From Spirochaetota bacterium (GTDB taxonomy: Bacteria; Spirochaetota; UBA4802; UB4802), in NCBI GenBank assembly GCA_040756435.1, contig JBFLZD010000041.1, positions 1 through 32,606 on the forward strand: a DNA stretch of 32,606 bases, written 5' to 3'. This document shows positions 2,282 through 6,447 of this stretch, in pieces. Each line of letters starts with the position of its first letter. Within the stretch, counting starts at the first letter, position 1. Under the pieces are notes generated by a model. That model searched no databases. It saw nothing but the letters and a program-made list of their open reading frames with translations, and was not told where the DNA came from. Position numbers and translations under genes: made by a program.

Positions 2282-2311
2282 TTGACATTTGTTGTATGTT
2301 TTATGTATTGT
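2282..2311 (+). promoter_or_regulatory. Promoter for trp leader and trpB2
   Basis: A perfect TTGACA (2282-2287) is followed after 18 bp by TATTGT (2306-2311). Transcription would start near 2318, about 27 nt before the leader-peptide ATG. Confidence 0.55.
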
Positions 2312-2344
2312 TTATGTAGGTAAATAAATTTACACGTTATATAT

Positions 2345-2425
2345 ATGGTAGTGGGTAAACTTAATATAACAGCTATTTTAATTTGGTGGTGGTGGCGTCA
2401 GGATAACAACTATCCGGGCGCTTGA
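2345..2425 (+). CDS. trpL: Tryptophan attenuator leader peptide (26 codons, four tandem Trp)
   Basis: This short reading frame lies between the promoter and trpB2. It runs ATG 2345 to TGA 2423-2425 and contains four consecutive TGG codons at 2384-2395 (peptide context ILIWWWWRQD). Trp is the rarest amino acid, so four in a row followed by hairpins and a rho-independent terminator is the hallmark of ribosome-mediated transcription attenuation, as in E. coli trpL. The peptide itself has no further function. No good Shine-Dalgarno sequence precedes the ATG; GTG 2351 is an alternative in-frame start. When charged tRNA-Trp is scarce, ribosomes would stall at 2384-2395 and release the downstream antiterminator (inference). 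Confidence 0.8.
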   Translation: MVVGKLNITAILIWWWWRQDNNYPGA

Positions 2426-2460
2426 GGAAGTTAGTTTATAATAGGGAAATCCTTAAAGGC
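2395..2460 (+). promoter_or_regulatory. Trp attenuator: pause hairpin and candidate antiterminator
   Basis: Immediately after the Trp codons, 2395-2405 can pair with 2411-2421 (core GGATA-ACAAC-TATCC, extended by GCG/CGC with one mismatch). This resembles the 1:2 pause hairpin. An alternative helix pairs 2422-2428 (TTGAGGA) with 2450-2456 (TCCTTAA), with possible extension through 2420-2421 and 2459-2460. It would take up the first bases of the terminator's 5' arm. The two helices compete at 2420-2421 and at 2455-2460, as expected of an attenuator. The pairings were worked out by eye without energy calculation, and the antiterminator is the weakest part. Confidence 0.6.
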
Positions 2461-2491
2461 TACGGATACTATTGTTAACCGTAGCCTTTTT
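2455..2491 (+). terminator. Rho-independent terminator of the trp attenuator
   Basis: The stem AAAGGCTACGG (2455-2465) pairs perfectly with CCGTAGCCTTT (2479-2489) across a 13-nt loop, followed by T-rich sequence. It lies about 50 bp before the trpB2 start and inside its transcript, so it must be regulated for the gene to be expressed. Confidence 0.85.
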
Positions 2492-2544
2492 ATTTGTAAT
2501 AAGCAATATTTTTAAAATTATATGATTCAAAAAAGGAGGATATA

Positions 2545-3909
2545 ATGGCAAAGGATTCAACTAAAATACAGTTACCCGAAAAGGAGATGCCACGGCAATG
2601 GTATAATATTCTGGCTGATTTACCCAAACCTATGGACCCGCCTATAAGTCCTGCAACTGGCAAGCCAGTAACACCAGATGAATTGCATGCTATTTTCCCC
2701 ATGGGATTGATAGAACAGGAAGTTAGTCCTAAAAAGTATATTGATATACCCGAAGATGTATTGCACATTTATCGTTTGTGGAGACCTTCACCGCTTTTCA
2801 GGGCTCGCCGTTTAGAAGCTGCGTTGGGAACACCTGCTAATATTTACTATAAATATGAAGGTGTTTCGCCTGCTGGAAGCCATAAGCTTAATACTGCAGT
2901 TGCCCAGGCATATTATAATAAACTTGAGGGCATAAAGAAATTAGCCACTGAGACTGGAGCCGGGCAGTGGGGCAGTGCTCTGTCACTGGCAGGGAACTTC
3001 TTTGGCATTGATGTGCATGTATATATGGTACGGGTAAGCTATGAACAAAAGCCATACCGTAAGTTTATGATGGAAACATGGGGTGCAACGGTCACACCAA
3101 GTCCAAGTAACCTTACCAATAGCGGAAGAGAAATTTTAAAACGGGACCCTGATAGTCCTGGCAGTTTAGGAATTGCAATAAGTGAGGCAGTGGAGGAGGC
3201 GGCTAACAGCAAAGATACCAATTATTCTTTAGGCAGTGTTTTAAATCATGTATGCCTGCATCAGACGATTATTGGACTTGAAACACTAAAGCAGTTTGAG
3301 ATGGTTGATGATTATCCTGATGTTGTTATTGGCTGTGTAGGCGGCGGTTCAAACTTTGCTGGGCTTGCTTTTCCGTTTGTACGGGATAAAATTAATGGTA
3401 AGAATATCGATATTATTGCGGTGGAACCTGCAGCTTGCCCAACATTAACAAAAGGCATGTATACGTATGATTATGGTGACGTTGCAAAACTTACACCAAT
3501 AATGCCAATGTATACATTAGGTCACTCATTTATTCCACCTTCAATCCATGCAGGCGGATTGCGATATCATGGTATGTCACCACTGGTGAGTTTCTTGTAT
3601 CATGAAGGGTTAATATCGGCAATGGCACTGCATCAAAAGGAGTGCTTTGAAGCAGCAATTTTATTCTCAAAGACTGAAGGCATTATCCCTGCACCTGAAT
3701 CATCTCATGCTATCAGAGCAGCAATCATTGAAGCTCAGAAAGCAAAGGAAGAGGGAAAGCAAAAGACTATTGTTTTTAATTTAAGTGGCCATGGGCATTT
3801 TGACCTGGCATCATATGACAAGTTTTTGTCAGGTGAGCTGGATGATTACGAATATCCAAAAGAATTAATTGATAAAGCATTGCACGATTTGCCAAAAGTT
3901 GGTAATTAA
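2545..3909 (+). CDS. trpB2: TrpB2-type tryptophan synthase beta chain
   Basis: This PLP enzyme of the TrpB2 class makes tryptophan from indole and serine. The 454-aa length, the N-terminal extension ([17 protein letters not shown]) and motifs such as [14 protein letters not shown] distinguish it from canonical TrpB1 (about 400 aa). The PLP lysine is Lys114 in AGSHKLNTA, and the phosphate-binding loop is [22 protein letters not shown] and the C-terminal LSGHGHFDL are also family-typical. AAAGGAGG lies about 6 nt before the ATG. No trpA or other trp gene is adjacent. TrpB2 proteins bind TrpA poorly or not at all and are thought to work alone or to salvage indole. Here the upstream Trp-codon attenuator indicates that expression is governed by tryptophan level. 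A MITE-like element follows 11 bp after the stop codon. Confidence 0.92.
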
Positions 3910-3920
3910 TGTTCTTATAG

Positions 3921-4146
3921 AGGGTGTCCCAAAACAAACAGTGGGGCTAACAATGACGCGGGTGCAAAGTCATTGCAAGTGTAACTCTTGTCCTGAGCTT
4001 GTCGAAGGGGCAATCTCAATGCTGTAGAAGATAAGATTGCCACGCGCCTACGGCGCTCGCAACTAGGGGATTGCTTCGTCACTTCGTTCCTCGAAATGAC
4101 AGGAGAGCAAAATTCATTGCAAAGAGATGTCTTTTGGGACACCCCT
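3921..4146. mobile_element. MITE-like intergenic element with terminal inverted repeats
   Basis: This non-coding 226-bp element is bounded by near-perfect inverted repeats: AGGGTGTCCCAAAA (3921-3934) and TTTTGGGACACCCCT (4132-4146). Inside are further inverted repeats: CAATGAC/GTCATTG near 3950-3975 and GGCAATCT/AGATTGCC near 4009-4041. It also holds the words CCTGAGCTTGTCGAAGG and TCGAAATGACA, which I recognise from interspersed intergenic repeats of many bacteria. It is visibly richer in G+C than its surroundings. No transposase gene is present and no clear target duplication was seen. Confidence 0.75.
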
Positions 4147-5682: not shown

Positions 5683-6447
5683 ATGAAAACAATTAAAATT
5701 ATGCCATGCCTTGACATGAAGGAAGGAAGAGTTGTCAAGGGCGTTAATTTTATTAATATTAAAGATGCGGGTGACCCTGTTGAAAATGCTGCGTTCTATC
5801 AAAAAGAAGGCGCTGATGAACTGGCAATGCTTGATATTGCTGCCACTGTTGAAAATCGCAAAACACGTCTGGAATGGGTTAAAAATGTTTCTAAAACTAT
5901 CAGCATACCTTTGACGGTTGGTGGTGGAATTGGAAGTATAGAGGATATTGAACTGGTGCTTGAGGCTGGCGCTTCAAAGGTATCAATGAACAGTGCTGCA
6001 GTCAAAAATCCCAACCTGATTGATGAAGCTGTAAAACGGTTTGGCTCTGACACCATAACTATTGCCATTGACGGTAAAAGAAATGATAAGCTTTCATCTG
6101 GGTTTGAGGTGGTTGTTGCCGGAGGCACCAAATCCACGGGAAAAGATGCTGTTACGTGGGCAGTTGAATGTCAGAAACGCGGTGCTGGTGTGCTTCTCCC
6201 CACAAGCATGGATGGGGATGGTACATTAAAGGGATATGATATACCGTTTACAAGGGCAATTGCAGAAGTGGTTACTATTCCTGTAGTTGCATCAGGTGGT
6301 GCTGGTACACTGGAACATTTTTATGAAGCAGTGGTGGAAGGGAAAGCACAGGTTTTACTTGCTGCATCAGTGTTTCATTTCAGGACATTTACTGTACGAC
6401 AGGTTAAGGAATATTTAAAGAATAGAGGTATTACCGTTAATCTATAA
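5683..6447 (+). CDS. hisF: Imidazole glycerol phosphate synthase cyclase subunit
   Basis: HisF is the TIM-barrel cyclase that converts PRFAR plus ammonia into imidazole glycerol phosphate and AICAR in histidine synthesis. The product is 254 aa, with both catalytic aspartates in their usual places: Asp11 in MPCLDMKEGRVVKGVNF and Asp130 in IAIDGKR. The phosphate-binding loops TVGGGIGS and VASGGAGTLEHF are intact, as is LLAASVFHF. The loop usually written LLTSMDRDGT reads LLPTSMDGDGT here. ATG 5683 follows AGGGAAAG; an upstream ATG at 5644 would add 13 residues not found in the family. No hisH or other his gene is within this window, so the glutaminase partner must be encoded elsewhere. Confidence 0.93.
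   Translation: MKTIKIMPCLDMKEGRVVKGVNFINIKDAGDPVENAAFYQKEGADELAMLDIAATVENRKTRLEWVKNVSKTISIPLTVGGGIGSIEDIELVLEAGASKVSMNSAAVKNPNLIDEAVKRFGSDTITIAIDGKRNDKLSSGFEVVVAGGTKSTGKDAVTWAVECQKRGAGVLLPTSMDGDGTLKGYDIPFTRAIAEVVTIPVVASGGAGTLEHFYEAVVEGKAQVLLAASVFHFRTFTVRQVKEYLKNRGITVNL

Follow-up and report, generated by a model that had tools for sequence, protein, structure and literature searches.

The 32,606-nucleotide stretch analysed here (the window), from a Spirochaetota bacterium, encodes a stand-alone tryptophan synthase beta-2, TrpB2, of 454 amino acids on the plus strand at 2545-3909. Profile searches assigned the protein to TIGR01415 (679 bits, cut-off 519) and PRK12391 (760 bits, cut-off 366), and the classical trpB model TIGR00263 gave 163 bits, far under its cut-off of 392. 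A strong Shine-Dalgarno sequence, AGGAGG, precedes the trpB2 ATG. Upstream lies an Mpl-like ligase gene, and the downstream neighbour begins at 4127, 217 nt away, and codes for an unrelated protein; trpB2 is therefore taken to stand alone as a monocistronic gene. By location it is of the trpB2_o type, with trpB2 on contig C41 and trpB1 in a trpEGDCFB1A operon on C67. The intergenic segment 3' of trpB2 (3990-4100) contains GATTGCTTCGTCACTTCGTTCCTCG, which resembles a dispersed intergenic repeat and occurs as one copy in the window.

A consensus scan located a putative sigma-70-type promoter upstream of trpB2 on the plus strand (2282-2311), comprising a -35 box TTGACA (2282-2287), an 18-nt spacer and a -10 box TATTGT (2306-2311). 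With a score of 10/12 this is the region's best consensus match, in agreement with the promoter proposed by the first-pass annotation of this DNA, and a TTGACA box occupies the equivalent place in orthologous leaders. The same annotation described a 26-codon leader with four consecutive TGG codons, and this ORF is present on the plus strand at 2345-2425, encoding the putative leader peptide MVVGKLNITAILIWWWWRQDNNYPGA followed by a stop codon. Its four tandem Trp codons (2384-2395), which would act as the regulatory codons, are kept together with the reading frame in four genus members and in family f5. On inspection of the sequence, no Shine-Dalgarno is visible before the leader ATG at 2345, so translation of the leader is presumed.

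Thermodynamic folding of the leader gives a pause hairpin, a terminator and a stepwise switch of state. The 1:2 pause/protector hairpin (2394-2422, plus strand) pairs 2394-2399 with 2417-2422 and 2401-2405 with 2411-2415, close to the 2395-2421 originally suggested for a hairpin directly after the Trp codons. The intrinsic terminator (3:4; 2456-2491, plus strand), earlier placed at 2455-2489, pairs 2456-2465 with 2479-2488 and is followed by a U tract. Both stems belong to the minimum free energy (MFE) structure, which has a z-score of -2.5 relative to dinucleotide shuffles, 2 of 200 being equally stable. The alternative pairing uses the 3' arm of the pause hairpin and the 5' arm of the terminator: segment 2, the antiterminator 5' strand (2411-2419, a UAUCCG core plus GGC), pairs through 2411-2416 with the segment 3 core CGGAUA (2463-2468), and in this genus the helix is extended by 2417-2419:2459-2461.

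When the nascent RNA is folded with the ribosome halted on the first Trp codon and segment 4 unmade, 2411-2419 pairs with 2459-2468, and a helix of 2422-2428 with 2450-2456 is nested within the 2:3 structure. The full RNA, or the RNA past a ribosome at the stop codon, folds into the terminator. Since the terminator (-18.5 kcal/mol) is thermodynamically favoured over the 2:3 helix (-12.0 kcal/mol), the switch would have to be kinetic. The first-pass annotation had cast 2422-2428:2450-2456 as the terminator's competitor. That helix (2422-2456, plus strand) can form, but the folds argue for an accessory part only: it overlaps the terminator by at most one or two A residues and is compatible with both predicted states, a similar local helix being predicted beside the terminator, and among the aligned leaders it is confined to the genus.

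These features suggest a mechanism of the classical kind. With ample charged tRNA-Trp, the ribosome would pass the four UGG codons, reach the stop at 2423-2425 and cover segment 2, whereupon the 3:4 terminator would form and transcription would end near 2489. Under a shortage of charged tRNA-Trp, the ribosome would stall at 2384-2395 and mask segment 1, leaving segment 2 (2411-2419) to pair with segment 3 (2459-2468) ahead of segment 4 synthesis; this pairing would pre-empt the terminator and allow read-through into trpB2. TrpB2 enzymes use O-phosphoserine, and the product here may use indole, together with serine or O-phosphoserine, to make Trp beside a trp operon that carries its own Trp attenuator.

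That second attenuator emerged from the distribution of the codon run itself. Across both strands of the 3.61-Mb genome, TGGx4 occurs at two sites only, before trpB2 and before the trp operon. The latter site (L072, 12300-12500 on C67, minus strand) comprises a WWWW leader, MKITLLTFAINNSWWWWTNMMST followed by a stop codon, a long 2:3 helix and two tandem terminator-like hairpins, with a clear conflict between 2:3 and 3:4 pairing. It precedes a complete trpEGDCFBA operon on a contig distinct from that of trpB2; trpE, trpG, trpD, trpC and trpF were named from gene order and sequence, trpA by model and trpB1 by similarity. The genome thus carries trpB1, trpA and a separate trpB2, with a Trp attenuator at both loci. 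Short ORFs and hairpins are common and the trpB2 leader lacks a Shine-Dalgarno, as would suit mere chance, a spurious reading frame with a TGG run beside an unrelated terminator, but both TGGx4 sites of the genome precede trp genes. Together with the fact that relatives keep the leader, its codons and the terminator, and with a covariance model specific to trpB2 (below), this leaves coincidence with almost no plausibility and effectively refutes it. Additional TGGx4 loci examined across the phylum gave no convincing leader except one in genome G088, close to a contig end.

Alignment of the regions upstream of trpB2 orthologues, the check proposed at the outset, recovered both conserved UGG runs and covarying stems in three families. 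Equivalent leaders precede trpB2 in 13 genomes from three families of the order, f1 (four), f5 (eight) and f2 (one), so that every f5 genome that carries trpB2 is represented, as are the three remaining genus members that carry it; one further genus member, G002, has no trpB2 match. Each conserved leader has either two to four Trp codons in a row or an interrupted run of the WGW kind (as in G013), and the frame has not shifted relative to the RNA structure: in most leaders YPGA lies over UAUCCGGGCGC. In the terminator stem, 100% of cells are paired, three pairs are compensated, and the covariation score was reached by none of 500 shuffles. The antiterminator core pairs in all 11 aligned leaders, with a G-U outermost pair in one leader and a gap at that pair in another. 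The f2 genome (G006) has a CAUCCG:CGGAUG core, a compensatory UA to CG change; the core is otherwise almost invariant, and covariation is weak for that reason. The f5 and f2 leaders have an equivalent of the pause hairpin, its register shifted.

A covariance model trained on 11 of these leaders was searched against 393 genomes of the phylum and gave 13 matches at E<1e-11, each lying immediately before trpB2, besides weaker matches at E 1e-6 to 1e-2. G028, of another f5 genus, and G006 lay outside the training set. No Rfam leader family, Trp_leader or other, matches this leader at the gathering threshold or at E<=5. The partial conservation of the leader peptide end (YPGA) across f1 and f5 might point to a stalling uORF that acts through its nascent peptide, as TnaC does, or through Rho, instead of through codon stalling. 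The conserved residues, however, overlie segment 2, which is constrained as RNA in any case; an intrinsic terminator with a U tract exists, and the stop codon adjoins segment 2 with the Trp codons just 5' of segment 1, as attenuation needs. We consider the uORF explanation very improbable. With leader frame, codons, terminator and antiterminator kept in 13 leaders and a parallel attenuator at the trp operon, the ribosome-mediated attenuation first proposed for this stand-alone gene is borne out at the level of sequence, and a classical Trp attenuator dedicated to monocistronic trpB2 is very probable.

The mechanism is ordinary; the target gene is unusual. The tandem-Trp leader ORF with its stop near segment 2 is shared with E. 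coli trpL and with the trp leaders of Corynebacterium and Streptomyces (PMC1262725), and trpL-type trp operon attenuators likewise combine 1:2, 2:3 and 3:4 hairpins with an intrinsic terminator and a Trp-biosynthesis gene downstream. In contrast, those attenuators control trpE or a whole operon, whereas the present leader precedes a monocistronic trpB2 and matches no Rfam model. The open literature searched yielded one attenuator ahead of a gene named trpB2, the candidate at the Corynebacterium diphtheriae trpB2A operon (Seliverstov 2005, PMC1262725). It too lies before a second trpB, and the other trp operon of that genome is also attenuated, but there the gene named trpB2 forms an operon with trpA, whereas the TIGR01415-type gene of the window is solitary.

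The view of the first-pass annotation that an attenuator dedicated to trpB2 is unusual holds in part, as the arrangement recurs. In families f10 and f28, trpB2 is preceded by WWWW leaders of different sequence that follow the same logic, with a clear 2:3 / 3:4 conflict. Outside the phylum collection, a Trp leader precedes trpB2 in one MAG labelled as Caldithrix sp. (L123) and one labelled as Acidobacteria (L143); at L122, trpB2 is the first gene of a trpB2-trpE cluster, and L182 (Deferribacteraceae) has a possible, weak leader. Trp leaders were found at trpE in most genomes examined in the order, which indicates that Trp attenuation is common there, and both the trpB2 and trp loci carry attenuators in f2 and in two f10 genomes. 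Trp attenuators, frequently as a pair within one genome, are documented here for a section of the spirochaete phylum in which Rfam does not cover this leader. Separately, four genomes of f5 genus g6 without trpC and TrpE matches had raised the idea of Trp auxotrophs living by indole salvage. We rejected it: the trp operon of G032 runs off a contig end, the trpBA contig of G018 appears foreign by our reading, and the remaining two genomes are 73-77% complete.

Genomes that lack the attenuator offered a second regulatory clue. Among 79 genomes with trpB2, 17 have an attenuator and 62 do not. All 17 of the former are devoid of TrpR-family matches anywhere in the genome. In 23 of the 62, a trpR-like gene lies directly upstream of trpB2 on the same strand; the others comprise one with a nearby trpR-like gene in another orientation, 11 with TrpR elsewhere and 27 with neither. 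Fisher's test of this mutual exclusion gave p = 1e-5, a value overstated because shared ancestry is ignored, and at the family level the exclusion holds in 5/5 attenuator families. Pfam PF01371 exceeds its cut-off in 67 of 146 genomes. The small ORF upstream of trpB2 has the NCBIfam TrpR model TIGR01321 as its best match at 42-59 bits, under the equivalog cut-off of 67, and we accordingly call the gene trpR-like. It stands immediately before trpB2 in families f4, f6, f7, f13, f27 and f36 (L046, L044, L035, L055 and L011-L013, among others). It also adjoins trpB2 at L108 (Spirochaetes bacterium GWF1_49_6), which shares 93.6% identity over 3.1 kb with an f36 genome and thereby marks the phylum of the window as the spirochaetes, and in the Neomarinimicrobiota MAG L166. 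From this gene order we infer that the TrpR-like protein may control trpB2. Neither trpB2 with leader peptides in spirochaetes nor trpR adjoining trpB2 turned up in the open literature, and both trpB2 as the target and the alternation of attenuator and trpR-like gene appear unreported in the open papers searched.

The role of TrpB2 outside the operon bears on how these observations are read. A Geobacter study describes trpB2 as indole-scavenging (PMC2700814). The available text of Merkl 2007 (PMC1854888) argues that trpB2 has a further, not yet identified function outside operons. The trpB2_o genes treated there share with ours a location apart from an operon-borne trpB1, but no Trp-responsive control is described for them in that text, whereas it is evident here. 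The attenuator could accordingly respond to Trp while TrpB2 serves an end other than net Trp supply, such as processing indole derivatives, with starvation as a proxy signal; the argument of Merkl 2007 and the presence of trpB1 and trpA in the same genome lend this some weight. Against it, trpB2 repeatedly comes with one of two unrelated candidate Trp controls, the attenuator or a neighbouring TrpR-like gene, and the trp operon of the same genome has a parallel attenuator, so that we judge a role outside Trp supply to be unlikely.

TrpB2 is probably made for tryptophan supply, and this reading gains from the many attenuator-less relatives in which a trpR-like gene adjoins trpB2. More broadly, we lean towards the view that the phylum's stand-alone trpB2 belongs to a Trp-starvation response governed by interchangeable switches, an attenuator or co-transcription with a TrpR-family gene, and that its product is hence a bona fide Trp-supply, indole-capturing enzyme. 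A Trp-tRNA sensor at trpB2, joined by trpR-like genes in sensor-less relatives, would be a direct regulatory argument for Trp supply and makes the role of trpB2 testable by simple read-through and indole-growth assays. If the two-switch reading is true, it answers the question left open on TrpB2 outside the operon.

Elsewhere in the window, an ORF at 72-719 resembles a REP-associated tyrosine transposase, scoring 70.8 bits against NF047646 (cut-off 80) and exceeding the cut-off of Pfam Y1_Tnp. Short repeats sharing GCTCTGACACC lie at 1022-1045, 6034-6057, 3-23 and 1881-1901, in both orientations and in some cases within genes.
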